A stretch of 64,000 nucleotides of DNA from Lutibacter sp. HS1-25 (lineage in GTDB: Bacteria > Bacteroidota > Bacteroidia > Flavobacteriales > Flavobacteriaceae). Shown here in pieces: positions 1,217-48,221 of this stretch (position 1 is its first letter; every line of letters starts with the position of its first letter). A program made the translations under genes and the position numbers. The DNA is taken from the NCBI RefSeq assembly GCF_004121075.1, contig NZ_RHLN01000004.1:1-64000 (forward strand), read 5' to 3'. The notes beneath the pieces were generated by a model that did no database searches, was not told the origin of the DNA, and was given only the letters and a program-made list of their open reading frames with translations.

Positions 1217-1226
1217 AAAGTCAACT

Positions 1227-2906: not shown

Positions 2907-2907
2907 G

Positions 2908-3609
2908 ATGAGTAAATATAAAGCATTAAAACAGGAATGTTATGAAGCCAATATGGAGTTAAATGCACTAGGATTGGTGATTTATACTTTTGGAAACGTA
3001 AGTGCAGTAGATAGAGAAAATGGTGTTTTCGCTATAAAACCAAGTGGTGTAGCTTATGAAGAATTAAAGCCTGAAGATATTGTTATTGTAGATTTTGATA
3101 ACAATATTATTGAAGGGACTATGAGACCATCTTCCGACACAAAAACACACGCTTATTTGTATAAAAACTGGGATGATATTGGTGGAATTGCACATACACA
3201 CGCTATGTATTCTGTGTCTTGGGCGCAGTCTCAATTGGATATTCCAATTTTCGGAACCACACATGCCGATCATTTAACGGCTGATATTCCTTGTGCGCCG
3301 CCAATGAGCGATGAACTCATAAAAGGAAATTATGAGCACAATACGGGTATTCAAATATTAGACTGTTTTAAAGATAAAAATATTTCGCACAAAGAGGTTG
3401 AAATGATTTTAATAGGAAATCACGGGCCTTTTACTTGGGGTAAAGATGCTGCAAAAGCTGTTTATAACAGCAAAGTTTTAGAAACTGTCGCTCAAATGGC
3501 GTATTTAACACTGCAAATCAATCCAAATGCACCGCGATTGAAAGACTCATTGATAAAAAAACACTATGAACGTAAGCATGGTAAGGATTCTTACTATGGT
3601 CAAAACTAA
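2908..3609 (+). CDS. araD: L-ribulose-5-phosphate 4-epimerase
   Basis: A 233-residue class II aldolase/adducin-family protein, nearly the length of the E. coli enzyme (231). The zinc site is intact: H96 and H98 in AHTHAM and H172 in GNHGPFTW, with D77 in the PSSDTKTH motif where the E. coli enzyme has D76. It converts L-ribulose-5-phosphate to D-xylulose-5-phosphate, the entry compound for the pentose phosphate pathway. The gene starts one base after the araB stop, so translation of the two is probably coupled. The related sugar fuculose-phosphate aldolase is excluded by the motif match and by the neighbours. Confidence 0.96.
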   Translation: MSKYKALKQECYEANMELNALGLVIYTFGNVSAVDRENGVFAIKPSGVAYEELKPEDIVIVDFDNNIIEGTMRPSSDTKTHAYLYKNWDDIGGIAHTHAMYSVSWAQSQLDIPIFGTTHADHLTADIPCAPPMSDELIKGNYEHNTGIQILDCFKDKNISHKEVEMILIGNHGPFTWGKDAAKAVYNSKVLETVAQMAYLTLQINPNAPRLKDSLIKKHYERKHGKDSYYGQN

Positions 3610-3633
3610 TAATAAATAATAAACAATAATTTT

Positions 3634-5256: not shown

Positions 5257-5268
5257 AACAAATATAAA

Positions 5269-6774
5269 ATGATAGATTTAAAAAAATATGAAGTTTGGTT
5301 TGTAACTGGAAGTCAACATTTATACGGTCCAGAAACCTTAAGACAAGTTGCTGAACATTCTCAGCAAATAGCTAAAGAATACAATAATAATGCAGCAATA
5401 TCTGTGAGTGTTGTATTTAAACCAGTAGTGAAAACTGCTGATGAAATTCACCAAGTTTGTAAGGAAGCAAATAACAATGATGCTTGTATTGGTTTAATTA
5501 CTTGGATGCATACTTTTTCTCCAGCAAAAATGTGGATTGCAGGTTTACAGGCTTTGGCTAAACCATTTTTACACTTGCATACGCAGTTTAATAGAGATAT
5601 TCCTTGGGGAACTATTGATATGGATTTTATGAACTTAAATCAGTCGGCTCATGGTGGACGTGAATTTGGGTTTATTGCTTCAAGAATGCGTATAAATCGT
5701 AAAGTTGTGGTTGGTCATTGGGAAAATACCGATGTAATAAAACAAGTTGACAGTTGGTGCAGAGTAGCTGTTGCAGTAGCAGATTCTAAAAAAATGAAAG
5801 TTGCGCGTTTAGGTGATAATATGCGTCAAGTTGCTGTGACTGAAGGGAATAAAGTTTCTGCGCAAATCAAATTTGGATATGAAGTAAATGGATTTGGATT
5901 GGGTGATTTAACTAAATTCATAGACCAAGTTACAGATAAAGAAGTAGATGCTTTAATTAAGGAATATGCAGATACTTATACCTTAGCAAAAGACATTGTT
6001 GTTGGTGCTGAAAAGCACTTTTCGTTAAGAGATTCAGCTCAAATTGAAATAGGGCTAAGAGCATTTTTAACCGATGGTGGTTTTACGGCCTTTACCAATA
6101 CATTTGAGAATTTACATGGAATGAAACAATTGCCAGGTATTGCAACTCAAAGATTAATGGATAGTGGCTTTGGTTATGGTGGTGAAGGTGATTGGAAAAC
6201 TGCAGCTTTAGTTCGTACAATGAAAGTTATGGGTGCTGGACTAGAAGGTGGGAATAGTTTTATGGAAGATTATACCTATCATTTTGATCCAAAAAACACG
6301 GCTGTATTAGGGTCGCATATGCTTGAGGTTTGCCCATCAATAGCTAAAGGTGAAGTAAAAGTTGAGGTACATCCATTAGGAATTGGAGGAAAAGAAGATC
6401 CTGCACGCTTGGTATTTAACGCAGGTGCCGGTAGCGCTTTAAATGCTTCAGTAGTTGATATGGGTAATCGTTTTAGGTTGTTGGTAAACAAAGTTGAGGC
6501 ATTAGAAATTGAAAACGACATGCCTAAACTTCCTGTTGCTCGTGTACTTTGGGATGCAAAACCAGATTTGAAAACAGCAGCATCAGCTTGGATTTTAGCG
6601 GGTGGTGCACACCATACAGGTTATAGCCAAAATATATCAGCTGAGCAAATGCAAGATTTTGCTGAAATGATGGATATTGAATATTTATTGATTGATGAAA
6701 AAACTGATTTATATCGTTTCAAACAAGAATTACTTTGGAATGATGCAGCTTATGCAATAAATAAAGGGTTTTAA
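5269..6774 (+). CDS. araA: L-arabinose isomerase
   Basis: A 501-residue protein, the same length as the classical AraA family (E. coli 500). The manganese-binding and catalytic residues sit at the expected positions: E306 in [10 protein letters not shown]333 in FMEDYTYH, H350 in LGSHMLEV and H449 in GGAHHTGYS. It converts L-arabinose to L-ribulose in the cytoplasm. It is 12 bp after the symporter gene and is the last gene of the catabolic block: a long stem followed by T residues lies directly downstream (6795-6856). A full araB-araD-transporter-araA set next to the glycosidases is the strongest clue to the substrate of the locus. Confidence 0.97.
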
Positions 6775-6888: not shown

Positions 6889-8349
6889 ATGAAACAGTTT
6901 TGTAAAATTGTAATTGTCGTTTTTTTAATTGGCTTAGTTTCTTGTAAAAAAGAAGCGAATAAAGTTGTTAATGTTGAAGATATATCAAACTTCAAATCGT
7001 GGGCAACAACGCCACCTATGGGCTGGAATAGTTATGATGCTTATCACGGCGCAGTTACCGAAAAACAATTTTTACAAGCTGTAGATACTTTAGAAAAAAA
7101 ATTATTGCCAGTTGGCTATGATTTGGCTACAATCGATTTTTGTTGGTTCAATCCTGGGCCAGAAGGTTGGAATCCTGACAATTGGACAACCTTTCCTGTA
7201 AAGCAATCTAAAGATTCTGAAGGCAATTTAACACCAACACTTACAATGGATGAATTTGGACGATTGTTACCTTCAGAAAACAGATTTCCTTCTGCTGCCA
7301 ATGGAGTTGGATTTAAAGCTATTGGAGATTATGTTCATAGTAAAAAAATGAAATTCGGAATTCATATTATGCGTGGTATTGCGCGCCAAGCAGTCATTCA
7401 AAATACACCTATTAAAAACACAAAATATTTTGCTAAAGACATTGCAAAATTACAAGATACTTGCAAGTGGAATAATAATATGTATGGCGTTGACCCATTT
7501 AAACCCGGAGCTCAAGAATATTACAATTCTTTATTTGAATTGTATGCTGAATGGGGAGTAGATTTTGTTAAGGTTGATGATATTTCGGCACCAACGTACC
7601 ATTCAAAAGAAATTGAATTGATTCGCAAAGCTATTGATAACTCGGGTCGCCCAATGGTGTTGAGTTTATCTTGTGGTGAAACTTTTGTTAGTTATTCAAA
7701 TCATCTTGAGGCTAATGCTAATATGTATCGTATTTCCATAGATTTTTGGGATAAATGGGAAAAAGTAGCACATATGTTCGATTTGGCCTATGCTTGGCAA
7801 CCTTTAATTAATAGAGGTACTTATCCAGATTTAGATATGATTCCTATCGGAAATTTATGTTTAACCGATTATCCTTTACAAGAAGAAAGTGGTGATAAAA
7901 CACAACATTTTTCAAGATTAAATAAAGAAGAACAAAAAACATTGATAACACTTTGGTGTTTTGCTAAATCACCTTTGATTTGGGGTGGTGATCCACTTTC
8001 AAGCAATTCAGAAGATTTTGAAATGATTTCTAATAAAAATTTAATCCATATCAACCAGACAAGTACAGGGAATAGACAAGCTGCCAATTTTGTATACGAA
8101 GGAATGGGGAGAGAAGATAGAATTTGGTTGGCAGAGTCTAAAGATGGAAACGAGAAGTATATAGCTTTTTTTAATTTAGGTGAACAGCCCAGAGATTTAC
8201 AATTTTACTTTCATTGGGAATATTGGGATGGAACTTATGAAATTGTTGATTTGTGGTCAAAAGAGAATATGGGTGTTTTTTCTGAAGAATTCACAGCTAC
8301 GCAAATTCCTGCACACGGAGTAAAAACATTTAAAATGATTAAAAAGTAA
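6889..8349 (+). CDS. GH27-like glycosidase lipoprotein (alpha-galactosidase or beta-L-arabinopyranosidase)
   Basis: A 486-residue lipoprotein (lipobox LVSC, Cys19) of the alpha-galactosidase-like GH27 type. The fingerprint TPPMGWNSYDAY is at residues 41-52. The expected nucleophile is D230 in FVKVDD, and D285 in RISIDFWDKW is the likely acid/base. A C-terminal beta-sandwich follows. GH27 contains retaining alpha-galactosidases and beta-L-arabinopyranosidases; next to an L-arabinose pathway the second activity is attractive but unproven. Basic residues follow the lipid Cys (CKKEANK), so it probably stays in the periplasm. It opens the long enzyme block, 10 bp before the first beta-helix gene. 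Confidence 0.85.
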   Translation: MKQFCKIVIVVFLIGLVSCKKEANKVVNVEDISNFKSWATTPPMGWNSYDAYHGAVTEKQFLQAVDTLEKKLLPVGYDLATIDFCWFNPGPEGWNPDNWTTFPVKQSKDSEGNLTPTLTMDEFGRLLPSENRFPSAANGVGFKAIGDYVHSKKMKFGIHIMRGIARQAVIQNTPIKNTKYFAKDIAKLQDTCKWNNNMYGVDPFKPGAQEYYNSLFELYAEWGVDFVKVDDISAPTYHSKEIELIRKAIDNSGRPMVLSLSCGETFVSYSNHLEANANMYRISIDFWDKWEKVAHMFDLAYAWQPLINRGTYPDLDMIPIGNLCLTDYPLQEESGDKTQHFSRLNKEEQKTLITLWCFAKSPLIWGGDPLSSNSEDFEMISNKNLIHINQTSTGNRQAANFVYEGMGREDRIWLAESKDGNEKYIAFFNLGEQPRDLQFYFHWEYWDGTYEIVDLWSKENMGVFSEEFTATQIPAHGVKTFKMIKK

Positions 8350-8358
8350 TTAGATATT

Positions 8359-9375
8359 ATGAAAAAAATAAGTTGTATTGTTTTATTCCTTTTAGGAATT
8401 TCATACGGTTGGTCGCAAACAGTTGCTGAACTGAAATCGAGTTATTCGGGTAAATTAAAATGGAACAATAAAACAAAGACTGTTCGTTTTGAATCTACTG
8501 GAACCATTTTTTTTAAAAATAAAACAGGTATTGGTCAAGATTTAGCTAACGATCAAAAAAATCATTTTTGGGTGGTGCCAAAAGATGTTAAAAAAATTAT
8601 AATTGGTAAAAATGTAACAGTTACAGGAGCTTTTCATACAAGTTCAGATATTTTTATAGCAGGTGAAGATAGAAAAACATCAGTGGTGTTTGGTACAGAT
8701 TTACAAACGTGGACAGATAAAAACAATCCAGGAAAACAAGATTTAAAAGAGTGGTATTATTCGCAATTTGACAATAGCAGCGGTGTATTAACCATTCAAA
8801 ATTTAACAATTCTAAATCCGTTTTCTTATTTTGTAAGAGGTTTTGGTCCAGTTGTTCACGTAAAAAGTGTCGATTTTATTGACAATCGTGGAGGTCACCA
8901 CAATCATAGTGATGGTTTTTGTGGAGGAAACGGTTCAACTGTTGACGATTGCTATTTTGAAAGTGGAGACGATGTTTTTAAAGCTTATTTTAACTATACG
9001 GTTACCAACTGCACTATAAATATGGTTGATAATTCCGTCCCTATTCAATTGGGTTGGGGAAATTATTCCAACGGAGCTGTGTGTACATTTAAAAATTTAA
9101 AAGTAATTGGGAATTCAGGAAGGTGGAGTTCAGACAATGCAGTTATTTCAGGAAGAACGGGTAAATATGACGTAACTATCAATATTGATGGACTAGAAAT
9201 TGAAAACCCCAATGCGGTGATGGTTAGTTTGTGGGAAGATACCATGACATTAAATGGAAACATTACCAATGCAAAAATAAACGTTAAAAAATATACAGAT
9301 AGACGTAATTCTGGCACAAATAATTTAACTATTTGTAATTCATTAGAACATACAAATCATTACGATTGTAAATAA
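8359..9375 (+). CDS. Secreted right-handed beta-helix protein, clan GH-N-like (paralogue 1)
   Basis: A 338-residue protein with a Sec signal peptide (cleavage near GWSQ, residue 20). Repeating short beta-strands with Asn ladders indicate a parallel beta-helix. An HNHSDG motif (D185) and an ESGDDVFKAY motif (D204, D205, K208) resemble the catalytic Asp arrangement of clan GH-N (GH28 polygalacturonases, GH49 dextranases). It is much shorter than typical GH49 and has no other recognisable domain. Two paralogues lie at 16536 and 17557; this one is the most divergent, with extra insertions around residues 55-68 and 118-135. A polysaccharide hydrolase or lyase on the sulfated substrate is likely; the exact family is not recognised. 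Confidence 0.72.
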   Translation: MKKISCIVLFLLGISYGWSQTVAELKSSYSGKLKWNNKTKTVRFESTGTIFFKNKTGIGQDLANDQKNHFWVVPKDVKKIIIGKNVTVTGAFHTSSDIFIAGEDRKTSVVFGTDLQTWTDKNNPGKQDLKEWYYSQFDNSSGVLTIQNLTILNPFSYFVRGFGPVVHVKSVDFIDNRGGHHNHSDGFCGGNGSTVDDCYFESGDDVFKAYFNYTVTNCTINMVDNSVPIQLGWGNYSNGAVCTFKNLKVIGNSGRWSSDNAVISGRTGKYDVTINIDGLEIENPNAVMVSLWEDTMTLNGNITNAKINVKKYTDRRNSGTNNLTICNSLEHTNHYDCK

Positions 9376-9384
9376 TATAGTATT

Positions 9385-10998
9385 ATGAAAAAAGTAATTG
9401 GCATTTTAGTTCTTGGTTTAATAGGCTTTTCAAGTTTTGGACAAGTTCAAAAATCAAATCAAAAACAGCCTAACATTTTAATTATTATGTTAGATGATGC
9501 TGGTTTAGATATGAGTGCTTATGGAAGTTCGTATGTAAATACACCAGCATTTGATAAATTAGCAAGTGAAGGTATTTTATTTAATAGAGCTTATACGCCT
9601 AATGCAAAATGTGCACCTTCAAGAGCTAGTATTTTAACAGGTAGAAACTCATGGCAATTAGATGCTGTTGCAAATCATTTTATATATTTTCCTTCAAAAT
9701 TTAAAACATTTCCTGAAGTTTTAGGTGAGAACGGTTATTTTACAGGCTGTACAGGTAAAGGTTGGTCGCCAGGTATTGCACTTACAGCTACTGGTGAAGA
9801 AAGAAATTTAACCGGAAAATCGTTTGATACTAAAAAGTTGAAATCGCCTACAACTGAAATCTCAGTGAACGATTATAGCGGTAATTTTAAAACGTTTTTA
9901 TCTGAAGTGCCTACAAAAACACCTTGGAGTTTTTGGGTTGGTTTTAACGAGCCACATCGTGCTTATGAATACCAATCGGGTGTTAAAAAAGGTGGTAAAA
10001 AGCTGGAAATGATTAAAGAAGTTCCAAAATATTATCCAGATTCTTCAACTGTACGTAATGACTTATTAGATTATGCTATGGAATTGGAATATGCCGATTC
10101 GCATGTAACAAAGATTCTCGAAGAATTAATTCAAAAAAAACAATTAGAAAATACCATTATAATTTATACTTCCGACCACGGAATGCCATTTCCACGAGTA
10201 AAAGGAAACCAATATGAAACATCAAACCATGTGCCAATGGCTATAATGTGGAAAGGAAAAATTTTAAATCCAAATAGAAGTGTTGATGACTATGTTAGTT
10301 TTATTGATATTGCGCCAACTTTATTAGAAATTGCGGGTATTAACTGGCAACAATCGGGTATGTATCCAAGTCCGGGAAAAAGTTTAGTAAACATCTTTAA
10401 TTCAACCCAATCAGGGCAAATAGATAAAGATCGCAATTTTGTGTTGGTTGGAAAAGAACGTCACGACCACGGGCGACCTAATGATGAAGGTTATCCAATT
10501 CGCGGAATTTATAAAGATAATTTGTTGTTTCTACGCAATTATGAAACGGATAGATGGCCAGCGGGAAATCCTGAAACAGGTTATTTAAACGTTGATAAAA
10601 GTCCAACAAAATCGTTGTTAATAAATTTAAGAAGGAGTGGCATTGACACAAAGTATTGGATGTTAAGTTTTGGAAAACGTCCTACTACAGAATTGTATGA
10701 TATAGTAAAAGATCCATATTGCTTGAATAATTTGGCTTCAGATAAAAACTATAGCAAACAACTTATAGAATTGGAGTATTTAATGGTTCAAAAACTAATT
10801 TCACAAGATGATTTAAGAATGCAAGGTTACGGACATTTATACGAGAAATTTCCTTTTACTCAATATAGAAATTACTACGAAAACTATATGAATGGAGAGG
10901 TTGATAATTTAAAATGGGCAGATCCTAACGATTATGAACCTACTTTTATTAGCAATGATGGTGAAAATTTAGAACCTGTTGTAAGGAAGATTGATTAA
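9385..10998 (+). CDS. S1 sulfatase (sulfamidase-like subgroup)
   Basis: A 537-residue S1 sulfatase with an N-terminal signal peptide (cleavage near SSFGQ). The formylglycine motif is CAPSR at residues 76-80 within [14 protein letters not shown]; metal-binding Asp residues are in IMLDDAG (residues 34-40) and TSDHGMPF further on. The NAKCAPSR context and the NSW stretch after it resemble the S1_8 / heparan N-sulfatase-like group, although the substrate cannot be read from sequence. It should remove sulfate esters from oligosaccharides in the periplasm. Activity needs Cys-to-formylglycine maturation by an enzyme that is not encoded here. Confidence 0.9.
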
Positions 10999-11260
10999 CT
11001 TCGATAACTGCTAAAAGTCAGTGATTTAGTTTTTTTGTTTTCTGATATCTAATTTGTTGTTAAAATAAAAAAAATCTTCTTAGTTCATAAATTCTCTTTT
11101 TTAGGATAAATGAGCAATTTTCATGTTCAAAACAGAATAAACCTTCATTGTACAATAACTATTTTTGATTGTGATTTTATTGGCAAGCGTTGTTGAAAAA
11201 AAATGAGCAATAAGCTTAGATGATTTAATCAAAATAAAAACTTAAATTATTTAATAATAA
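10999..11260 (+). promoter_or_regulatory. Longest gene-free gap; possible internal promoter
   Basis: This 262-bp gap is the largest in the window. A weak stem (ctaaa/tttag, about 11012-11030) followed by a T-run may end transcription from upstream. TATTTTTG at 11160-11167 fits the Bacteroidota -7 consensus TAnnTTTG, but no good TTG/TTTG element lies at the expected distance upstream. A 10-bp direct repeat aaatgagcaa occurs at 11108-11117 and 11201-11210. The gap may hold a secondary promoter for the GH43/sulfatase genes that follow. Confidence 0.3.
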
Positions 11261-12364
11261 ATGAGAAGACTTATCCTTATTCAGGCGTTGCTTATAGGAA
11301 CTTTTTTTGGTTGTAAAAGTCAAAATGGTAATAATACGGTATTAAAAACAAATTCTATAATTTCAAACGTTGAAGCAATTAAAGCGCATCATAAAACAGT
11401 TTATTTAATGGAAGATGTTTGGATGCGTGATCCATTTATCGAATTGGCTCCTGACGGCTATTATTACTTGTCGTGTACGCGACAAAATAGCAATTTAGGA
11501 TTGCAAAAGCCAAAAGGCGGAATAGAAGTATTTAGAAGTATTGATTTAGTTACTTGGGAATCGTTAGGGGTAATTTGGAATACTAGTCAATCAGAATGGG
11601 GGAAAAAAATGGAAGCAAGAGCTGTTTCTCCAGAAAATAAACACGACGTGAAAGAAGCGATGATTTGGGCACCTGAAAGTCATTTTATAAATGGTAAATG
11701 GGTGGTTTTATACACATCTAATCAAGGTGCTGCAAACTTAATGTTAACTGAAGGAGCAGATTTGAAAGGACCATTTTTAGAGCCATTTGGAACGGATTTT
11801 GGAAGTCATCATGATCCAACTATTTTTATGGATGGTGATCAACCTTGGTTAGTAGATAAAATAGCTCAAGTAACGCCTTTAAAAAAAGATTTTAGTGGCT
11901 TTGATGGAGAATCAATAAATATTGGGCCTTCAGATAGAAAAATGGGTCATGAGGGTGCGTATATTGTGAAATTCAAAAATAAGTACGTGCTGTTTGGAAC
12001 TGCGTGGAGTACAGATAAAATGCGCCATGGAACCTATAATTTATATTACGCAACTGCAGATAAAATTACAGGACCTTACAATGAAAGAAAATTTGCTGGT
12101 CGTTTTTTAGGTCATGGGACGCCATTTAAAGATAAAAATGGCAACTGGTGGTGTACAGCTTTTTACAATGCCAATAAACCTGCTTTAACAGGTGAAGAAG
12201 CTAAGAATTTAGACTTAAGTGATACCGCTTACACAATTAATAAACAAGGATTAACTTTAGTTCCTATTGAATTTAAAATGGTAAATGGTGATGTAAAAGT
12301 AATTGTGAAAGATGCTGATTATGCTTTTCCAGGGAAAGAAGAAATTCAAAATTTTAATGAATAA
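11261..12364 (+). CDS. GH43 family glycosidase lipoprotein
   Basis: A 367-residue five-bladed-propeller GH43 enzyme with a lipoprotein signal (GTFFGC, Cys18). The three family carboxylates are visible: D57 in MRDPFI (base), D185 in HHDPTIFM (pKa modulator) and E231 in HEGAYIV (acid). GH43 enzymes are inverting alpha-L-arabinofuranosidases, beta-xylosidases, arabinanases or exo-galactanases; the subfamily is not recognised. The downstream sulfatase ATG overlaps this stop by one base (TAATG), so the two are probably translated in a coupled way. This suggests paired desulfation and exo-cleavage. Confidence 0.87.
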   Translation: MRRLILIQALLIGTFFGCKSQNGNNTVLKTNSIISNVEAIKAHHKTVYLMEDVWMRDPFIELAPDGYYYLSCTRQNSNLGLQKPKGGIEVFRSIDLVTWESLGVIWNTSQSEWGKKMEARAVSPENKHDVKEAMIWAPESHFINGKWVVLYTSNQGAANLMLTEGADLKGPFLEPFGTDFGSHHDPTIFMDGDQPWLVDKIAQVTPLKKDFSGFDGESINIGPSDRKMGHEGAYIVKFKNKYVLFGTAWSTDKMRHGTYNLYYATADKITGPYNERKFAGRFLGHGTPFKDKNGNWWCTAFYNANKPALTGEEAKNLDLSDTAYTINKQGLTLVPIEFKMVNGDVKVIVKDADYAFPGKEEIQNFNE

Positions 12365-13944
12365 TGATAAAAAAACTTTTCATATTAATTTTAGCTTTTT
12401 TAAGTATTGTAAGTTGTAAAAAAGCCCCAAAAGAGACTTCTATTCCCAAAGATTTATCTAAACCAAATATCGTATTTATTTTTTCAGACGATTTAAGTTT
12501 TAGAGATATCAGTGCTTATGGTCAAAAGAATTATACAACACCTAGAATTGATGGTTTAATAGAGCAATCTATCCGTTTTACACAAGCTTACGCAGGCGCT
12601 CCAGAGTGTGCGCCTTCAAGAGGAACTTTATTAACAGGTAAACATGTTGGTCATCAGGTTATTCGTTTAAATAGTAGTGCGCGTGGTTTTGAACCACTAC
12701 CTGAAAACACCAATACATTTGCTAAAATGTTGCAACAAGCGGGTTATAAAACTGGTGTTGTTGGAAAATGGGGTTTAGGCTATAGCGATACCTCAGGAAA
12801 TCCATTAAAACAAGGGTTTGATTATCATTTTGGTTTTTTAACACATTATGAAGCGCATTCTTATTTTCCGTTGGTTTTGTATGAAAACAATAAAGAAATT
12901 TATTATCCCCAAAACGATTCATTTGATATAGAACAGATGTATTCAAAAAATGAATATGGCGACAATTCAAAATTTGAGAAGCATTATAATGAAGATGGGA
13001 AATTGATTTATATGGACATGGAAAAGGCAGCCTATGCACCAGACTTATTTGATAAAAAAGCATCAGAATTTATAACTACCAATAAAAACAATCCTTTTCT
13101 TTTGTATTTCACTACTAATTTGCCTCACGGCCCTACAATTGTTGATGATTTCAGACAGTTGAAGGATAGAAATGATGTGGATATTTATGCTCGCGAATGG
13201 GGCGCAATGGTACAACGTTTAGATATTTCAGTAGGTAAAATAATTGATAAATTAAAAGAAGAAGGTATTTATGATAATACAATGATTGTCTTTGCATCAG
13301 ATAATGGATATTCCATGCACAGTCCTAAAACAGTAAAATCAGGTGAACGTGTTTGGTTAGACGATAAAGATTTAGCAAATAAAGGACCATTTAAAGGAGG
13401 TAAATTTGGTGTGTTTGAAGGCGGAATGCGTATTCCTTTTTTTATACGGATGCCACATCAAAATGAAGCTAAAATTATAAGTGAGCCTGTTTGGCTGGTA
13501 GATTTATTTCCAACTTTTGCATCGGTTGTACAATATCCTCTTGATGAAAAATTAGATGGATTTAATTTATTGCCTTTAATGGCAGGAGATAAAAATGCAA
13601 TCCCTTCAAATCGTTTTATGTATTTCTACAAGCAAAATGAACAGGCCATTCGTCAAGGACCTTGGTTTGCCTATAGAGAGCATCCAAATAAAGAAGTTGA
13701 GTTGTATTTAATTGAAGAAGATCAAGAAATAAAATTTAATTACGCATCCGTATATCCTAAAAAAGTTGAAGAATTAAAACAATTGATGGACTCAGAGCAT
13801 ATTCCAAGTGAATGGTATTGGAATCCAGGAGATACACAAGAAATTTTTAAAAATAAAGTCAAGAAAGCAAAAGAAACAGGTCAAGAAATTAAAAAATATA
13901 GACCAAATAAAATGGAGCTTATGCCTTGGGAAAAAAGCAAGTAA
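12364..13944 (+). CDS. S1 sulfatase lipoprotein
   Basis: A 526-residue S1 sulfatase with lipobox IVSC (Cys18) followed by Lys residues. The modification motif is CAPSR (residues 82-86) in GAPECAPSRGTLLTGK; metal ligands are in FSDDLS (residues 40-45) and ASDNGYS (~315). The GKWGLG motif near residue 135 is typical of arylsulfatase-A-like members. It shares its first base with the stop of the GH43 gene upstream and precedes another GH43 gene by 18 bp. Substrate position (2-, 3-, 4- or 6-O) cannot be told. Confidence 0.91.
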   Translation: MIKKLFILILAFLSIVSCKKAPKETSIPKDLSKPNIVFIFSDDLSFRDISAYGQKNYTTPRIDGLIEQSIRFTQAYAGAPECAPSRGTLLTGKHVGHQVIRLNSSARGFEPLPENTNTFAKMLQQAGYKTGVVGKWGLGYSDTSGNPLKQGFDYHFGFLTHYEAHSYFPLVLYENNKEIYYPQNDSFDIEQMYSKNEYGDNSKFEKHYNEDGKLIYMDMEKAAYAPDLFDKKASEFITTNKNNPFLLYFTTNLPHGPTIVDDFRQLKDRNDVDIYAREWGAMVQRLDISVGKIIDKLKEEGIYDNTMIVFASDNGYSMHSPKTVKSGERVWLDDKDLANKGPFKGGKFGVFEGGMRIPFFIRMPHQNEAKIISEPVWLVDLFPTFASVVQYPLDEKLDGFNLLPLMAGDKNAIPSNRFMYFYKQNEQAIRQGPWFAYREHPNKEVELYLIEEDQEIKFNYASVYPKKVEELKQLMDSEHIPSEWYWNPGDTQEIFKNKVKKAKETGQEIKKYRPNKMELMPWEKSK

Positions 13945-13962
13945 TTATCTAATAAATAAACA

Positions 13963-15138
13963 ATGAATTTTTTAAAATATCTATTTAGTGCAATTGTGTT
14001 AGTTGGTTCAACAGTTGCGTGTACTAATACAACCCCAAAATCTGAAAAACTGACAGAAGCACAAGTTAAAGAGCAATTTTTTACGTATCAAAACCCAATT
14101 AAAAATGGAATTGATGAAAATGGGTTAAGAGATTGTCAAGTTTTAAAAGATGGAGATTGGTGGTATTTAACAGGAACATCTTATCCGCATTGGGACCGCC
14201 AAGAAGTTAATGGTAAGTTGAATAAAGGTGTTGTGTTATACAAATCTAAAGACCTTAATAATTGGGAATTTGTTGATTATATTGTTAAAGCAGGTGATAA
14301 AACTAAATGGTATCACAAACGTTTTTGGGCACCAGAAATTCAAAAAATAAAAGGTAAATATTACGCTTTATTTAATTGTCGAAATGATGATTTAGGGTAT
14401 GTGGGGCAACATCCAGGATATGCTGTTGCAGATAATATTGAAGGACCTTATACTGTAGTAACTGAAGAAAGTCCGTTAACAAATGGAAACGATCTTACTT
14501 TTTTTGAAGATAAAGATGGTAAAGTTTGGGCGTTTTGGAATCAAGGTAGAGAATTTGGGATAGGTTTTGCTCAAATTGATTTGGATAATGGAACTTTTTT
14601 AACAGCACCTAAAAGTGCCATAAAACCAAGTGAAGTAGATTATGAATATGATGATAAAGGTATTTTGTTAAATGTACCAGGATATGATGGGAGACCAATT
14701 CCAAAAGTAAAAAAATACCACGATTGGGATGCTATTGGTATTGAAGGCGCTTATGTGATTGAAAATAATGGCACCTACTATTTATTTTATTCAAGTTGGA
14801 CACGTGGATATGAAATTGGCTATGCAACCGCTAAAAATATTGAAGGGCCTTGGGTTAAAAGTGAATCTAATCCGTTTTACGGTGCTCAAAGTAAACAAGC
14901 TTGTGAAAAAAATGGATTTGAATATAATGGAGACCCTAACAATCCATTTAATCAGGTTGGACATAACGAAATTTTTGTAGGTCCTGATGGAAGATTTTGG
15001 TTGTCTTGTCATGGTATTATACCAAGTCAAAATGACGAAAAACCTTTTTTAGTTATAGATCCAATTTGGTTTGATGAGGAAGGCAATGTGAAATCTGATG
15101 GACCATCTTATACTGAGCAAAAAGTGAAATTAAACTAA
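13963..15138 (+). CDS. GH43 family glycosidase lipoprotein
   Basis: A 391-residue GH43-like propeller with lipobox TVAC (Cys20). Candidate catalytic carboxylates are D57 in LRDCQVL, D177 in GNDLTFFED and E261 in GIEGAYVIENN, in the spacing expected for the family. The base motif is RDC rather than the common DP, so it belongs to a less typical branch. Insertions around residues 222-250 (EVDYEYDDKG, YDGRPIPKVKK) enlarge one side of the propeller. It sits between two sulfatase genes, with 10 bp to the next. Confidence 0.8.
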   Translation: MNFLKYLFSAIVLVGSTVACTNTTPKSEKLTEAQVKEQFFTYQNPIKNGIDENGLRDCQVLKDGDWWYLTGTSYPHWDRQEVNGKLNKGVVLYKSKDLNNWEFVDYIVKAGDKTKWYHKRFWAPEIQKIKGKYYALFNCRNDDLGYVGQHPGYAVADNIEGPYTVVTEESPLTNGNDLTFFEDKDGKVWAFWNQGREFGIGFAQIDLDNGTFLTAPKSAIKPSEVDYEYDDKGILLNVPGYDGRPIPKVKKYHDWDAIGIEGAYVIENNGTYYLFYSSWTRGYEIGYATAKNIEGPWVKSESNPFYGAQSKQACEKNGFEYNGDPNNPFNQVGHNEIFVGPDGRFWLSCHGIIPSQNDEKPFLVIDPIWFDEEGNVKSDGPSYTEQKVKLN

Positions 15139-15147
15139 TTTATTTGT

Positions 15148-16524
15148 ATGAAAACCAAACTATTGCCTATTTTATTTTTCTTGTTTTTTATCGAATTTTA
15201 TTCATACGGACAAGAAAAGGCAGTCAACCAAAAGTACAATGTTATTTTTATAGCTGTAGACGATTTAAATGATTGGGTTGGATTTATGGATGGAAATCCT
15301 CAAACAATTACACCAAATATGGATAAATTGGCTAGCCAAGCAATGGTTTTTGATCGTGCTTATTGCGCTGCATCGGTTTGTAATCCTTCAAGGGCGGCAA
15401 TTATGTCGGGTTATAAGCCTTCTACAACAGGGGTTTATGGAAATGGAGATGAGGTATTTGAATTGCCAATTTTTCAAAATTCATTAATGCTTTCACAATA
15501 TTTTTCAAAATATGGCTATGAAACCTATTCACGAGGAAAAATTTATCATACTCCAAGTACAGGGAAACAAACTTGGGATAATTGGGATAATGTGTCTGGA
15601 AGTTATGGTGTAAAGCCAAAAGTAGCAGGTTATATGAGCAACGGCATTCCTGATGGTGAAATGTCTAATAATATGGATTGGACAGCAACCAATCAAAAAA
15701 CCGAAGAAACACCTGATTATTTAAATGCCTTATGGGCAGCAGAATTATTAGAGAAAGGTTTTGATAAACCCTTTTTTATGGCTTGTGGAATTTTTAGGCC
15801 TCATTTAGAGTGGAATGTACCGCAAGAATTTTATGATAAATTTCCTATTGAAGATATTGTATTACCTATGGTTTTAGAAAATGATTTAGATGATGTAGGT
15901 GATAATACAAAACCTACTAAAGAATATATTGCCATTAAAAAATACAATAAGCAAAAAGAAGCTGTGCAAGCCTACTTGGCTAGTGTTAATTATGCCGATT
16001 ATTGCATAGGTGTGCTTTTAGATGCTTTAAATAAAAGTAAATACAAAGACAATACCATTGTAGTTTTATGGGGAGATCACGGATGGCATTTGGGTGAAAA
16101 GTTACGTTATAAAAAATTCACACTTTGGGAAGAAGCTTGTAGAGTTCCTTTAATTATTAAAGCTCCAAATGTTACTTCTGCAGGAAGTAGAAGTGGAAGA
16201 ACAGTAAACTTATTAGATTTATACCCAACCTTAACAGATTTAACAGGCTTACCAAAAAATAATAAAAACGAAGGTATAAGCATTGTGCCGCTATTGAAAA
16301 ATCCAACTTTAGAATGGGATTATCCATCATTAACACAAATGGGTGAAGGTAGAAATACCATTAGAACTGAAAAATGGAGATATATAAGATATGACGATAA
16401 TTCAGAAGAATTATACGACCATGAAAATGATGAATTAGAATGGGTAAACCTAGCGAATAAGCCAGAGTATGCAGCTGTAAAATCCGAAATGGCTAAAAGA
16501 ATGGATGCTATTTTAAATAAGTAA
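15148..16524 (+). CDS. S1 sulfatase (iduronate-2-sulfatase-like)
   Basis: A 458-residue S1 sulfatase with a Sec signal peptide (SYGQEK, cleavage near residue 21). The modification motif is CNPSR (residues 78-82) in AASVCNPSRAAIMSG; metal-binding Asp pair D38-D39; WGDHGWHLGE near residue 309 is typical of the iduronate-2-sulfatase-like S1_7 group. It likely removes a sulfate in the periplasm. It shares the CNPSR class with the genes at 18741, 20213 and 60828. The next gene, a beta-helix protein, starts 11 bp downstream. Confidence 0.91.
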   Translation: MKTKLLPILFFLFFIEFYSYGQEKAVNQKYNVIFIAVDDLNDWVGFMDGNPQTITPNMDKLASQAMVFDRAYCAASVCNPSRAAIMSGYKPSTTGVYGNGDEVFELPIFQNSLMLSQYFSKYGYETYSRGKIYHTPSTGKQTWDNWDNVSGSYGVKPKVAGYMSNGIPDGEMSNNMDWTATNQKTEETPDYLNALWAAELLEKGFDKPFFMACGIFRPHLEWNVPQEFYDKFPIEDIVLPMVLENDLDDVGDNTKPTKEYIAIKKYNKQKEAVQAYLASVNYADYCIGVLLDALNKSKYKDNTIVVLWGDHGWHLGEKLRYKKFTLWEEACRVPLIIKAPNVTSAGSRSGRTVNLLDLYPTLTDLTGLPKNNKNEGISIVPLLKNPTLEWDYPSLTQMGEGRNTIRTEKWRYIRYDDNSEELYDHENDELEWVNLANKPEYAAVKSEMAKRMDAILNK

Positions 16525-16535
16525 GTTAATTGAAA

Positions 16536-17537
16536 ATGAGATTCTTAAACTTTTTTTTAATAGCTTTTGGTTTGTTTTTTACGAATGTTTTTTATGGGCA
16601 GTCTGTTCAAGATCTTCAAAAAAAATACAGTGGAAAATTTAACTGGGAGGCTTCAAAAGGGATATTGAAATTTGATACTTCAGGAGAAATTAATTTTGAA
16701 GAAAAAGGGACTAAATATTTTATTTGGGATGTTCCTTCAGAAGTGAAAGAAATTATAATTGCTAAAAATACAACCGTAAACGGAGGTTTTCACACCCAAG
16801 ATGATTGCATAATTTCGGGTGAAAACAGAAAAACATCTGTGGTTTATGGAACTGAAATACAAAGTTGGCCGCAAAAAAATAACATTAAGGCAGCAACTAT
16901 TAGTTCATTTGAAGCGCACAATGGCACTTTAATTATTCAAAATATAACAAGTTTAAATCCACGGTCATTTCATGTTCGTGGCTTGAGTGCTGTGGTTCAT
17001 TTAAAAGATGCTGACTTTATTGATACCCGTGGCGGTAGTGGAAATCATAGTGATGGTATTGCTGCAGGTGATGGATCAACAGTTGATAACTGTTATTTTG
17101 AAACGGGAGATGATGTAATTAAAGTGTATAATGATATTACAGTGACCAATACCACAATTAACATGGTTCAAAATGCGGTGCCAATTCAATTAGGTTGGGG
17201 TGATTATCCTGATGGTGCAGTTGGTACTTTTAAAAACCTTACCATAATTGGAAATAGCGGTCGTGGAAATCCAAATGGTAGCAATGCAATTATTGTAGGA
17301 AGGAGTGGAAAGTATACAGTAACCATTAATATTGATGGGCTAACCATTGATAATCCATCAGCTTCAATAATAAATCTTTTTGATGATAAAAACGATGGCA
17401 TTTTTGAGAAAACGTTGAAAGGAACTCTTAAAAATGTTGAAGTTAAAAATATAAAAAGATACTCAGTACAACAAAATGGAATTGACGAATTAGAGCTTTT
17501 TGATACAACCGGGAGTAAAATATCAAAGGACTTTTAA
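16536..17537 (+). CDS. Secreted right-handed beta-helix protein, clan GH-N-like (paralogue 2)
   Basis: A 333-residue protein with a Sec signal peptide (NVFYGQS). ATG at 16536 is preferred to an in-frame TTG six bases upstream. The catalytic-type motifs are GNHSDGI (D173) and ETGDDVIKVY (D192, D193, K196), matching the other two paralogues. It is closest to paralogue 3: long blocks such as LNPRSFHVRG, DGSTVDNCYFETGDDVIK and IKMVQNAVPIQLGW-type segments are almost identical. The genes are adjacent (19 bp apart), so a tandem duplication is likely. Without the lipid anchor it is expected in the periplasm or secreted. Function inferred: polysaccharide cleavage. Confidence 0.72.
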   Translation: MRFLNFFLIAFGLFFTNVFYGQSVQDLQKKYSGKFNWEASKGILKFDTSGEINFEEKGTKYFIWDVPSEVKEIIIAKNTTVNGGFHTQDDCIISGENRKTSVVYGTEIQSWPQKNNIKAATISSFEAHNGTLIIQNITSLNPRSFHVRGLSAVVHLKDADFIDTRGGSGNHSDGIAAGDGSTVDNCYFETGDDVIKVYNDITVTNTTINMVQNAVPIQLGWGDYPDGAVGTFKNLTIIGNSGRGNPNGSNAIIVGRSGKYTVTINIDGLTIDNPSASIINLFDDKNDGIFEKTLKGTLKNVEVKNIKRYSVQQNGIDELELFDTTGSKISKDF

Positions 17538-17556
17538 TTCATAAAAAAGTAAAATA

Positions 17557-18624
17557 ATGAAAGTAAGTAGTAGGATTTTAAGTATTGTATGTTTTTTGTT
17601 TTTGGTAGTTTCTTGCGCTGAAAATAGTGATGGTGAAGAATTTGGGACAGATATTATTAATGATGACGAACCTATTGAAGAAATTGTTCAAAAAATTGGG
17701 CTGGAAGATTTTTATAGTGGTGAAATAAAATGGGATAAAGCTACTGGAACTGTAACCTTTATGACTTCTGGAAAAATATTTTTCCCAAGTGAGGGATTGA
17801 TTGGTTTTATTTGGAATGTACCTACCAAAGTAAAACAAATAATCATAAAAGAAAATGTTACTGTCGATGGGGCATTTCATACATTTTCAGATTGTACTAT
17901 TTCTGGGGAAAATAGAAAAACTTCAATTCTTTATGGCCTCGAAGAGCAAGCTTGGGCAAACAATAATAATTTAACAGCGTATAAAATTAGTTCCATTGAA
18001 TGTCATAATGGAACATTAACAGTATCAAATTTAACCTCGTTAAATCCACGATCATTTCACGTTCGTGGAAATGCTGGGGCTATTCATCTTAAAGATGCTG
18101 ATTTTATTGATAATCGAGGTGGACATCATAATCACAGTGATGGTATTGCTGCTGGAGATGGATCTACTGTAGATAATTGTTATTTTGAGACAGGAGACGA
18201 TGTTATAAAAGTGTATAGTGATATTACAGTTACAAATACAACCATTAAAATGGTTCAAAATGCAGTGCCAATTCAGCTTGGCTGGGGTAATTATTCTGAT
18301 GGAGCTGTTGGTACTTTTAAAAATCTAAAAATAATTGGAGATAGCGGTAGAGGTAATCCTGATCAAAGTAATCCAATAATTTGCGGGAGAACTGGTAAAT
18401 ATGCTGTTACGTTAAATATTGATGGTTTAATTATAGACAACCCAACAGCATCAATGGTCAATCTATTTGATGATAACAATGATGGGGTTTATGAAAAAAC
18501 AGTAAAAGGAACTTTAAAAAATGTTCAGATATCAAATATTAGACGCTATTCAAATCAATTAAAAGGAAATGATGAATTGAAAATTTTTGACACCGAAGGA
18601 AAAGAAATTTCAAAAGATTTTTAA
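17557..18624 (+). CDS. Surface-type beta-helix lipoprotein, clan GH-N-like (paralogue 3)
   Basis: A 355-residue lipoprotein (lipobox VVSC, Cys20). The Cys is followed by a strongly acidic stretch (AENSDGEEFG, then DDEPIEE), which resembles lipoprotein export signals that send proteins to the cell surface in Bacteroidota. The beta-helix carries HNHSDGI (D195) and ETGDDVIKVY (D214, D215, K218). It is a near-duplicate of the previous gene apart from the N-terminus. A reasonable reading is that this copy makes the first cut at the cell surface and the unanchored copies act on imported oligosaccharides. The family is not recognised beyond clan-level resemblance. Confidence 0.73.
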   Translation: MKVSSRILSIVCFLFLVVSCAENSDGEEFGTDIINDDEPIEEIVQKIGLEDFYSGEIKWDKATGTVTFMTSGKIFFPSEGLIGFIWNVPTKVKQIIIKENVTVDGAFHTFSDCTISGENRKTSILYGLEEQAWANNNNLTAYKISSIECHNGTLTVSNLTSLNPRSFHVRGNAGAIHLKDADFIDNRGGHHNHSDGIAAGDGSTVDNCYFETGDDVIKVYSDITVTNTTIKMVQNAVPIQLGWGNYSDGAVGTFKNLKIIGDSGRGNPDQSNPIICGRTGKYAVTLNIDGLIIDNPTASMVNLFDDNNDGVYEKTVKGTLKNVQISNIRRYSNQLKGNDELKIFDTEGKEISKDF

Positions 18625-18740: not shown

Positions 18741-20207
18741 ATGAATCAAATTAAGACAAAAGTAAAAATCTTTATATTCCTATTTGTACTTGCACAAATA
18801 AGTTATTGTCAATCTAAAAATCAAAAAAATGTATTGCCTGCTAAAAAAACAAATATTGTGTTTATAGCCATTGATGATATGAATACCTGGATAAGTGCTA
18901 TGGGAGGTCAGGCAAAAACACCAAATATAGATAAGTTAGCGAGCGAAGGTAAATTATTTGCAAATGCGCATTGCGTTGTACCAGCTTGTAATCCTTCAAG
19001 AGTTGCAATTTTAACCGGATTAAGACCAGAAACTACTGGTCAATTTACAAATCCTGGTAACTTTAGAGATAAACCAGGGAATGCTGATTTAGTGACATTG
19101 CCAAAATATTTGAAAGATCTAGGTTACGAGTCAATAGGTATTGGTAAAATTTTTCATAAACAAGCTGGTAAGGGAGAAATAGCTGATCCACAATCAGACC
19201 CACAATCATGGAGTTTTCAATATAAAAATGATATTGGTACAAAAGGTCATCAAGCTTTATTAGATGAAAATAACCAAGCAAAATGGTTAGAAGGTGCCAT
19301 GTATAAAGAAGGAATGGATATTGAGAAACCTGAATATTTGACTAAGTTTGGAGTTTGGGGGGTAACACCAGAAAAGAAAGAAGAAACTGCCGATTGGGAA
19401 AATGCTGCTTATTCAGCTGAATATTTAAGTCAAGCTCATGAAAAACCATTCTTTTTATCTGTTGGATTTATGAGGCCTCATTCTCCACAAATAGCACCAC
19501 AAGAGTTTTTTGACATGTATCCTTTAGAAAATGTTGTAATTCCTGAATTGCCAGAAGATGACATGGATGATATACCTCAAATAGCAAAAAGAAATTTCAC
19601 ATCTGAATTTGTTGAGCAAGTGAAAGCAAAAAATCAAATTCAAAAAGCGACACAAGGCTATTTAGCATCTATGAGTTTTGTTGATGCTTGTGTTGGTAAA
19701 GTGTTGGAAGGTATAGAAAATGGACCAAATAAAGACAATACTATCATAGTGTTATGGAGTGATCACGGTTGGCAATTGGCTCATAAAAACCGATGGGAAA
19801 AGTTTAGTTTGTGGACACAATCTACGCATGCACCTTTAGTAATTAAATATCCAAACATGAAAAATAGAGGAATTACTTCAAATCAAGCAGTTTCATTATT
19901 AGATTTATTCCCTACAGTTTTAGATTTAAGTGGTATTGAAAAGCCAGACTTTTTAGAAGGAACTTCATTAAAACCTTTATTGGAGGATACTAATTATGTT
20001 AGAGAAGAACCTATTTTAATTACCTATGAAGAAGGTAATATTAGTGCTCATAAAAACGAGTGGAATTTGATTCAGTATGTAAACGGAGAAGAAGAATTTT
20101 ATAATAATTTAAAAGATCCTCATGAGTTCAATAATATCATTAATGAAGCAGGTAACGAGGAAATTAAAAATGAATTAAGAGCTTCAATTTTAGAACTTAA
20201 AAAATAA
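18741..20207 (+). CDS. S1 sulfatase (iduronate-2-sulfatase-like, tandem copy A)
   Basis: A 488-residue S1 sulfatase. ATG at 18741 gives a normal signal peptide (KIFIFLFVLAQISYCQ); an in-frame ATG 48 bases upstream adds 16 polar residues before it and sits in a hairpin, so it is rejected. The modification motif is CNPSR (residues 83-87) in VPACNPSRVAILTG; metal ligands D45-D46, and LWSDHGWQLAHKNRW is near residue 336. It is strongly similar to the next gene across its length, for example GLRPETTGQFTN and NFRDKPGNA are shared, so the pair arose by tandem duplication. The substrate is unknown. Confidence 0.92.
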   Translation: MNQIKTKVKIFIFLFVLAQISYCQSKNQKNVLPAKKTNIVFIAIDDMNTWISAMGGQAKTPNIDKLASEGKLFANAHCVVPACNPSRVAILTGLRPETTGQFTNPGNFRDKPGNADLVTLPKYLKDLGYESIGIGKIFHKQAGKGEIADPQSDPQSWSFQYKNDIGTKGHQALLDENNQAKWLEGAMYKEGMDIEKPEYLTKFGVWGVTPEKKEETADWENAAYSAEYLSQAHEKPFFLSVGFMRPHSPQIAPQEFFDMYPLENVVIPELPEDDMDDIPQIAKRNFTSEFVEQVKAKNQIQKATQGYLASMSFVDACVGKVLEGIENGPNKDNTIIVLWSDHGWQLAHKNRWEKFSLWTQSTHAPLVIKYPNMKNRGITSNQAVSLLDLFPTVLDLSGIEKPDFLEGTSLKPLLEDTNYVREEPILITYEEGNISAHKNEWNLIQYVNGEEEFYNNLKDPHEFNNIINEAGNEEIKNELRASILELKK

Positions 20208-20212
20208 ATTAA

Positions 20213-21676
20213 ATGTTTAAAATTGTAAAGTGTTTTGTATTACCTGTACTAGTATTATTGGTTTCTTGTAATTCAAAGAAGACCAATCAAACAAAACAAA
20301 ATACTGAAAAGTTGAATGTTGTTTATATTGCTGTAGACGATTTAAATCGTTGGGTTGGTGTTATGGGCGGACAAGCAAAAACACCAAATATTGATAAATT
20401 GACTGCCCAAGGTATGCTGTTTACCAATGCGCAATGTGTGGTGCCAGCTTGTAATCCATCTAGAGTTGCAGTTTTTACAGGATTAAGACCCGAAACTACA
20501 GGACAATTTACAAACGCTGGAAATTTTAGAGATAAACCAGGAAATGCTGAACGGTTAACAATGCCTCAGTATTTGCAAAAGAACGGATATGAAACCGTTG
20601 CTGCAGGTAAATTATTCCACCATCCAAGAGGTGCTGCTGAAGAACCGGCAGAACTTTCTGATGATATTTCTTGGGATTATCAACACAAAAATGGGGTTGG
20701 TACAAAAGGGCATGATTTGTATTTAGATAAGAATAATCAAGCGGCATGGTTAGAAGGTGCAATGGCAAGTTATGGTGCTGGTGGAACAGGTGAAGCCTAT
20801 ATTAGTAAGTTTGGTGTTTGGGGAGTAACTCCTGAAAAAAAGGAAGAAACAGCCGATTGGAAAAATGCAGTATTTAGTTCAGAATATTTAGCTAAAACTC
20901 ATGAAAAACCTTTCTTTTTGGCTTGTGGTATTTTTAGACCACATTCGCCACAATTAGCTCCGCAAGAATTTTTTGATATGTATCCTTTAGAAAGTGTTAA
21001 AACGCCAGAATTACCAGAGGATGATATGTTGGATATACCAGAACATATTAGAACTAATTTTTCTTCAGAATTTGTAGGGCATGTAAAAGAAAAAAATCAA
21101 TTAAAAAAAGCTATGCAAGGCTATTTGGCTTCAGTTAGTTTTGCAGATGCTTGCATTGGTGAAATTTTAAAAGGTTTAGAAAATGGCCCAAACAAAAACA
21201 ATACAATTGTGGTACTTTGGACAGATCATGGTTGGCAATTGGGACAGAAGAATAGATGGGAGAAATTTTCACTTTGGGACATGGCAACCAATTCACCTTT
21301 AATTATTAAACATCCTAAAAAAGAGTTTGTTTCAAAAAGGGTAGATATACCAGTCTCGTTATTAGATTTATATCCTACGATGATGGATTTACTTGCAATT
21401 GAAAAACCAACAGATTTAGAAGGTGTTTCATTAACTCCATTTATGGAAAATTTAAGTTATAATAGAGTAGAGCCCGCAATTGTTACTTTTGAAGAAGGAA
21501 ACATAAGTGTTCGTAAAAATGAGTGGAATTTTATTCAATATAAAAACAATACGGAAGAATTATATAATCATACTTCTGATCCTTTTGAATATACGAATAT
21601 CATTAACAAAAATGGAACGGAGGCTATTAAAAACGAATTAAGAGCTTATGTAACAAACTTAAAAAGTAAAAAATAA
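20213..21676 (+). CDS. S1 sulfatase lipoprotein (iduronate-2-sulfatase-like, tandem copy B)
   Basis: A 487-residue S1 sulfatase with lipobox LVSC (Cys19), five bases after copy A. The modification motif is CNPSR (residues 80-84). It shares most motifs with copy A (GLRPETTGQFTN, KFGVWGVTPEKKEETADW, FFDMYPLE) but is a lipoprotein, whereas copy A has an ordinary signal peptide. One substitution in the active-site region is LWTDHGWQLGQKNRW here against LWSDHGWQLAHKNRW in copy A. The pair may differ in location or in accepted substrate size. Confidence 0.92.
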   Translation: MFKIVKCFVLPVLVLLVSCNSKKTNQTKQNTEKLNVVYIAVDDLNRWVGVMGGQAKTPNIDKLTAQGMLFTNAQCVVPACNPSRVAVFTGLRPETTGQFTNAGNFRDKPGNAERLTMPQYLQKNGYETVAAGKLFHHPRGAAEEPAELSDDISWDYQHKNGVGTKGHDLYLDKNNQAAWLEGAMASYGAGGTGEAYISKFGVWGVTPEKKEETADWKNAVFSSEYLAKTHEKPFFLACGIFRPHSPQLAPQEFFDMYPLESVKTPELPEDDMLDIPEHIRTNFSSEFVGHVKEKNQLKKAMQGYLASVSFADACIGEILKGLENGPNKNNTIVVLWTDHGWQLGQKNRWEKFSLWDMATNSPLIIKHPKKEFVSKRVDIPVSLLDLYPTMMDLLAIEKPTDLEGVSLTPFMENLSYNRVEPAIVTFEEGNISVRKNEWNFIQYKNNTEELYNHTSDPFEYTNIINKNGTEAIKNELRAYVTNLKSKK

Positions 21677-21679
21677 GAT

Positions 21680-43352: not shown

Positions 43353-43359
43353 TTAAAAA

Positions 43360-45126: not shown

Positions 45127-45158
45127 TAATATTAATAATAACCGAATAAACTAACGTA

Positions 45159-48209: not shown

Positions 48210-48221
48210 AAACTTTTAATT

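Follow-up and report, generated by a model that had tools for sequence, protein, structure and literature searches.

Single-domain relatives of GH49 beside an L-arabinose block in Lutibacter: three candidate hydrolases of a sulfated arabinopyranan

Which glycosidic bond is addressed by three similar proteins that recur within one block of sulfatases and glycoside hydrolases (GHs) is the question raised by a 64,000-nucleotide stretch of Lutibacter sp. HS1-25 (positions 1 to 64,000 of contig NZ_RHLN01000004.1, hereafter the window). These proteins, termed BH1, BH2 and BH3, are encoded on the + strand at 8359..9375 (338 residues), 16536..17537 (333 residues) and 17557..18624 (355 residues), with an ATG start at 16536 for BH2 and an alternative TTG start 6 bases upstream. 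As judged from their sequences, BH1-BH3 are single-domain relatives of the catalytic beta-helix of GH49 that lack the N-terminal domain of this family. They are very probably GH49-related inverting hydrolases, an activity prediction whose grading is our judgement and not a computed value. Their target may well be the beta-L-arabinopyranosyl bonds in a sulfated arabinan from green algae, although we hold this fuller reading with slightly less than even confidence.

All three proteins can be aligned over their full length, with BH1 being 50.0% (161/322) and 50.6% (163/322) identical to the other two and BH2 and BH3 sharing 65.2% identity (217/333). In the core of the adjacent pair (BH2 residues 130-245) identity reaches 84.5% (98/116), which is high but short of the near identity claimed by a first-pass annotation of the sequence. 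The HSDG and GDDV-x-K motifs reported there do occupy identical alignment columns in the three proteins, and the predicted catalytic Asp residues named for the first copy are numbered exactly. The triad and the Lys correspond to D185/D204/D205/K208 in BH1, D173/D192/D193/K196 in BH2 and D195/D214/D215/K218 in BH3. Read by eye, the N-termini of BH1 and BH2 resemble ordinary signal peptides and that of BH3 a lipobox (LVVSC), so that all three are apparently secreted. An operon arrangement is suggested by the short gaps to the respective upstream genes (9, 11 and 19 bases for BH1, BH2 and BH3), while promoter and terminator scans yielded no more than with shuffled sequence.

The absence of a recognisable family, as initially annotated, holds for the curated models. 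Scans of BH1-BH3 gave chance-level matches with Pfam and none with NCBIfam, PF03718 (GH49) was found in none of eight family members (E up to 10), PF17433 (the GH49 N-terminal Ig-like domain) likewise in none of the eight, and PF00295 (GH28) did not reach BH1-BH3 at its cut-off, neither in the member scan nor in a search of the own genome. A PF03718 search of the same genome returned one sub-threshold match elsewhere (E 0.24) and none to the window copies; this match is meaningless, the model giving below-cut-off matches in 7 of 14 control genomes too. The claim does not hold with regard to GH49 itself. Searching the PDB with BH3 alone (phmmer) retrieved the GH49 dextranase AoDex (6nzs, E 6.4e-9) and isopullulanase (E 0.002), a profile of the three copies retrieved AoDex as its sole match at E up to 10 (1.5e-12), and an eight-member profile retrieved AoDex (7.3e-9) and isopullulanase (0.007). 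No lyase appeared among the matches of either profile at E up to 10. With blastp, similarity to GH49 amounted to 9e-14 for BH3 and 3e-7 for BH1. In profile-profile comparison (hhalign), 19 members matched a GH49-like profile built from one Streptomyces GH49 and eight larger GH49-like proteins with 99.4% probability (E 1.4e-21, 244 columns). Single-sequence pairs gave 97.5% for the Streptomyces GH49 (E 8e-12, 158 columns) versus 44.6% for a GH28 of the own genome (E 2.3e-4, 166 columns), in which DG...DD is aligned. GH28 polygalacturonases thus share clan GH-N and these residues with BH1-BH3 but match far more weakly, and the Pfam GH28 model is blind to all three; by sequence, the nearest family is GH49 (dextranase/isopullulanase, clan GH-N), ahead of GH28.

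In the PDB, the matching GH49 chains comprise 549-587 residues, in agreement with the earlier statement that the three proteins are much shorter. Because of this shortness, and because the alignment begins only at column 171 of 792 in the GH49-like profile and at residue 307 of 793 in the Streptomyces GH49, the BH proteins appear to be devoid of the GH49 N-terminal domain. They hence resemble characterised GH49 structures (AoDex 6nzs, Dex49A 1ogm, isopullulanase 1wmr/3wwg) in a homologous catalytic beta-helix with the Asp triad, TDG...DD in GH49, at the same alignment positions, but differ in consisting of the catalytic domain only and in lying below Pfam detection of GH49.

Across 19 single-domain homologues from three phyla (Bacteroidota, Verrucomicrobiota and Pseudomonadota), seven columns are invariant (Ile75, Gly95, Ser101, Asp173, Gly174, Asp192 and Asp193 in BH2 numbering). 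Four of these are the D, G, D and D of the triad region, kept in 19/19 sequences; the Lys of GDDV-x-K is present in 16/19, and in 13/13 of a closer set. On the phmmer alignment (counted by hand), the triad falls on AoDex chain positions 369/388/389, the first two of which are D420 and D439 given an offset of 51 residues. D420 and D439 are described as the predicted catalytic residues of AoDex (PMC9852402). By alignment, the putative triad of the BH proteins occupies the catalytic positions of GH49 and clan GH-N, as the motif assignment of the first-pass annotation had implied. A related machinery is reported for GH110 alpha-1,3-galactosidases such as PdGH110B, beta-helix enzymes that act with inversion via three Asp residues (D321/D344/D345, with assigned acid and water roles) and whose fold and catalytic machinery are described as conserved in GH28, GH49 and GH87; the bonds attacked by PdGH110B are of alpha-galacto type and belong to a sulfated glycan from algae (PMC7939477).

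BH1 and BH3 are predicted to adopt a right-handed parallel beta-helix, consistent with the fold initially proposed. Their AlphaFold2 models, based on nine-row alignments of sequences from the window and loci L005-L008, reached a pLDDT (predicted local distance difference test) of 84.0 and a pTM (predicted template modelling score) of 0.84 for BH1, and 80.6 and 0.79 for BH3. Foldseek comparisons were evaluated for the best 50 of 416 matches (BH3) and the best 50 of 320 (BH1). GH49 chains occupied ranks 1-6 and 8 with BH3 (seven of the top eight), interspersed with polysaccharide lyase family 6 (PL6) alginate lyases at ranks 7 (E 1.9e-4) and 9 (8.7e-4). With BH1, GH49 filled ranks 1-6, the subsequent matches being mostly GH28 along with a pectin methylesterase, and the first PL6 appeared at rank 26 (E 0.046). 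GH110 was found neither among these fold matches nor among the sequence matches.

The single-domain family is patchily distributed. A scan of 84,980 species genomes, which under-reports as its seed patterns were drawn from three close paralogues, revealed at least four loci with close relatives, found in Flavobacterium flevense (two copies), Leeuwenhoekiella parthenopeia, Draconibacterium sediminis and an Opitutales metagenome-assembled genome (MAG). A further relative is encoded on a megaplasmid of Catenovulum adriaticum. In a sample of the phylum (E up to 1e-10) 1/395 genomes matched, and in a sample of the taxonomic family of the window (E up to 1e-5) 1/397, in both cases the own genome; these two samples scored at most five candidates per genome, so that misses are possible. 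Within the order Opitutales, 4/273 sampled genomes matched (E up to 1e-15). Plasmids contributed four records, including two proteins from Streptomyces with a family 49 annotation, while none of 35 pattern matches in viral contigs was a relative and a phage search with the Catenovulum protein as query retrieved none either. In a phylogenetic tree, the 19 single-domain sequences split from seven larger or GH49 sequences with 100/100 support, which is not proof of monophyly given the long outgroup branches. BH1 clusters with proteins of F. flevense, Draconibacterium and Opitutales (94/92), BH2 and BH3 with proteins of F. flevense and Leeuwenhoekiella (100/99). The simple reading is that two old lines, one leading to BH1 and one to BH2/BH3, may have been kept side by side; interspecies transfer would be an alternative. 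There is also a second, more distant single-domain group (L005:13921-15015 (-), L013:22393-23355 (-) and G773:C25:22841), in which the Lys is absent from two of three members and the Catenovulum member is annotated as GH28.

The three paralogues of the window, correctly recognised at the outset, are accompanied by larger and more distant GH49/GH28-like proteins outside of the window on the same contig (C4), at 71780-73912 (- strand, 710 residues), 76102-79527 (- strand, 1141 residues, with CBM6/CBM35-type and type IX secretion system (T9SS) sorting domains) and 86469-87851 (+ strand, 460 residues). Two of the three end in T9SS sorting tails. The 1141-residue protein carries NNDA in place of the DG of the others. 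Together with counterparts in L006, L007 and L008, these proteins share the related beta-helix and D(G/A)...DD with the BH-type proteins and occur on the same contig or locus. Unlike BH1-BH3, they comprise 460-1348 residues including an extra N-terminal part, GH49N is detected by Pfam in two of five scanned and GH28 in one (1.6e-4), and they fall on the opposite side of the 100/100 branch.

With regard to the substrate, the surroundings of the BH genes point to L-arabinopyranose, based on an L-arabinose block, a GH27, two GH138-type proteins, GH43s and sulfatases. Upstream of BH1, five genes on the + strand (560..6774) form the block for L-arabinose catabolism, encoding a protein of the transaldolase/fructose-6-phosphate aldolase type (560), ribulokinase (1227), L-ribulose-5-phosphate 4-epimerase (2908), an SSS symporter (3634) and L-arabinose isomerase (5269); the kinase and the isomerase score above their NCBIfam cut-offs and the epimerase above that of its subfamily model. 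The block is followed by the GH27 gene (6889..8349, +), which ends 9 bases before BH1 and whose product has the beta-L-arabinopyranosidase Abp (4nx0, E 4.5e-106) as best solved match, whereas the best chain named alpha-galactosidase reaches only 4e-23. Pfam was applied to 40 window proteins including BH1-BH3, with the first open reading frame covered by NCBIfam only. They comprise nine sulfatases, five GH43, one GH2, two 3-keto-disaccharide hydrolase domains and one GH115_C (the protein at 51151), which bears out the proposed setting in an enzyme block for a sulfated polysaccharide. Between BH1 and BH2, sulfatase genes (9385..10998, 12364..13944 and 15148..16524, all + and PF00884) alternate with GH43a (11261..12364, +) and GH43b (13963..15138, +), both with weak solved-structure matches only, and three more PF00884 sulfatases (18741..23077, +, starting at 18741, 20213 and 21680) follow BH3. 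Naming sulfate positions from sulfatase-to-structure matches was dropped, the matches being too broad.

Further downstream, two proteins resembling alpha-D-galacturonidases of GH138 type are encoded at 23239..25419 (+) and 27352..29970 (+), matching the NCBIfam model AlphGalctur with E 4e-29 (101 bits) and 4.1e-32 (111 bits), far short of its equivalog cut-off of 1300. The latter also matches BPa0997 (6hze, E 3.7e-17), the founder of GH138. Both are divergent, with no Pfam match at the limits used, and possibly represent a branch active on beta-L-arabinopyranose. GH43c with a GH43_C2 domain (31684..33291, +) is nearest to the alpha-L-arabinofuranosidase BoGH43B (1.4e-106) and a beta-xylosidase (8.5e-105). 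Two TonB-dependent receptor/SusD pairs (40179/43360 and 45159/48222, within 40179..49910, +) complete this part; the second receptor (45159) is named from context, having matched CarboxypepD_reg domains only, below the Pfam cut-off.

Much of this setting recurs elsewhere. In F. flevense, 14 window genes are conserved in one 21 kb stretch, and among nine other homologue sites window-type sulfatases are found at seven and GH43 at six. A relative of the GH27 is present in eight of nine family-bearing genomes or records (own, F. flevense, Leeuwenhoekiella, Draconibacterium, four Opitutales and Catenovulum). In the Opitutales sample (n=273), GH27 occurs in 30 genomes (E up to 1e-40), the BH family in four and both in three, with a hypergeometric value of 0.0045 that ignores kinship, genome size and richness in carbohydrate-active enzymes and is not relied on here. 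In the homologue of the Opitutales MAG (L008:9394-11067), the BH domain is fused to a 207-residue C-terminal part resembling the C-termini of the two GH138-type proteins of the window (6e-11 and 1e-8), and this fusion is a sign that BH-type and GH138-type proteins may act together. As side observations, the F. flevense match to GH43a (L005:4726-5711) spans two frames, by a possible frameshift or sequencing error, the Draconibacterium GH27 relative (G775:C1:1898440-1899816) reads with two internal stop codons, and a second Lutibacter GH27 outside of the window (C4 89453-90892), 44% identical to that of the window, lies beside sulfatase and GH43-like genes.

Polymers that would fit this inventory are known from green algae. 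Sulfated pyranosic beta-L-arabinans are made by Bryopsidales and Cladophorales and contain no or very little uronic acid; the configuration of beta-L-arabinopyranose at C1-C4 is that of alpha-D-galactopyranose (PMC7550628). One marine and one freshwater Cladophora are reported to have a 4-linked beta-L-arabinopyranose backbone, with sulfate mainly at C3 and also at C2 and with xylose and galactose branches (PMC5694217), while the backbone is 3-linked in two Codium species (PMC4178480). Owing to the configurational match, a 4-linked chain of this type would be a twin of alpha-1,4-galacturonan. The latter is the substrate of GH28. A GH27 of Abp type, GH138-type and GH49-type proteins within one L-arabinose locus would fit one common target, from which we infer both the substrate and a role at the backbone; the enzyme class is well supported.

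BH1-BH3 probably catalyze hydrolysis with inversion. Of the two adjacent Asp residues (DD), the first would protonate the leaving oxygen, and water would be activated by the second, by the Asp of HSDG or by both. The bond cut would be beta-L-arabinopyranosyl, homomorphous with the alpha-D-galacto bonds in the substrates of several beta-helix relatives, and located in the backbone of a green-algal sulfated pyranosic arabinan, with either the 4-linkage described for Cladophora or the 3-linkage described for Codium. Cleavage may take place after, or together with, desulfation. The cell surface may be the site of action of the lipoprotein-like BH3, and BH1 and BH2 may process fragments after import.

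Several points weigh against this proposal. The next solved match of the GH27, a putative alpha-N-acetylgalactosaminidase (3cc1, 3e-103), is nearly as good as Abp; GH27 relatives occur at only three of the nine other homologue sites, genome G981 is the one of nine family-bearing genomes without such a GH27 (E up to 1e-20), and two Opitutales sites carry no sulfatase, GH43 or GH27 of window type. The TM-scores to GH49 are modest (0.44-0.60, with a root-mean-square deviation of 6-11), which renders the helix register uncertain, and with the shallow alignments behind the models they make the predicted active-site geometry tentative. Furanosic arabinans are also described from other Codium species (PMC4178480), and an arabinose operon lies beside arabinogalactan-induced loci in Maribacter (PMC11036162). 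It is quite possible, if on the doubtful side, that the BH proteins are inverting GH49-related hydrolases of another alpha-D-galacto- or gluco-configured bond in the same or another sulfated arabinose-containing polymer, rather than of the arabinopyranose backbone; side chains of alpha-Gal or alpha-GalA and a sulfated arabinogalactan are examples. Cleavage of alpha-Gal and alpha-Glc bonds is known from beta-helix relatives (PMC7939477), and a sulfated arabinogalactan of Codium fragile is reported together with bacterial loci for it that contain GH27 and GH43 (PMC8406133), which makes this polymer a serious alternative substrate; type II arabinogalactan may be another. The GH138-type proteins, the homologue fused to such a part and the GH115_C domain at 51151 could indicate uronic acid. 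GH28 acts on alpha-GalA bonds. Moreover, the larger GH49/GH28-like proteins with their T9SS tails may be the true backbone depolymerases, leaving oligosaccharides or side chains to BH1-BH3. Arguing for arabinopyranose instead, the adjoining catabolic block is one for L-arabinose, and apart from the GH138-type and GH115_C proteins no family of pectin or uronate catabolism was found among the 40 scanned window proteins.

The same hints of uronic acid, and the PL6 ranks in the BH3 fold search, would suit beta-helix polysaccharide lyases, an option raised by the first-pass annotation that now appears improbable: with the better model, BH1, PL6 follows only from rank 26, the PDB profile searches gave no lyase, the invariant residues are those of a glycosidase triad, and little or no uronic acid is described for the sulfated polysaccharides of the two algal orders (PMC7550628). 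Closest kinship by sequence and fold would speak for true alpha-glucan enzymes of dextranase or isopullulanase type, yet this is very improbable in view of eight members without Pfam GH49, the missing N-terminal domain, a branch separate from GH49 and the larger proteins (100/100, long branches) and many sulfatases without any other alpha-glucan family among the scanned proteins. Kinship to an existing family of known specificity has thus been found, but the alpha-glucan specificity of GH49 is not expected to transfer to a locus equipped for arabinose and sulfate. Hardly credible at all are non-catalytic glycan-binding beta-helix proteins, given that D, G, D and D are unchanged in all 19 divergent homologues.

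Among the literature matches listed, no paper deals with an enzyme cutting the backbone of sulfated pyranosic arabinan, and we share the view of the first-pass annotation that the activity is likely novel. These arabinans are described as cell-wall polymers of Cladophora, freshwater species included, and Codium (PMC7550628, PMC5694217), and arabinans from Codium are under study as anticoagulants (PMC4178480). BH1-BH3 could constitute a new family, or a GH49-derived subfamily, of beta-L-arabinopyranan hydrolases that depolymerize the sulfated pyranosic arabinans made by Cladophora and Codium, a proposal that we advance tentatively. If true, GH27, GH138-type and GH49-type enzymes would have converged on beta-L-arabinopyranose as a mimic of the alpha-D-galactose configuration, the clan GH-N machinery would extend from galacturonan and glucan to arabinopyranan, and a tool for making defined arabinan oligosaccharides would be at hand. 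The mapped triad and the syntenic copies in Flavobacterium flevense DSM 1076 render the question directly testable.

Some other window proteins are without clear enzyme family, namely a BT_3987-like/DUF5627 protein (49940-50995), a 946-residue protein with a T9SS tail (37134-39974) and a protein with a weak GH2-barrel match (33297-34466). A PD40 beta-propeller protein (26290-27339) without NCBIfam match, possibly PL22-like, is more than 70% identical in three related loci.

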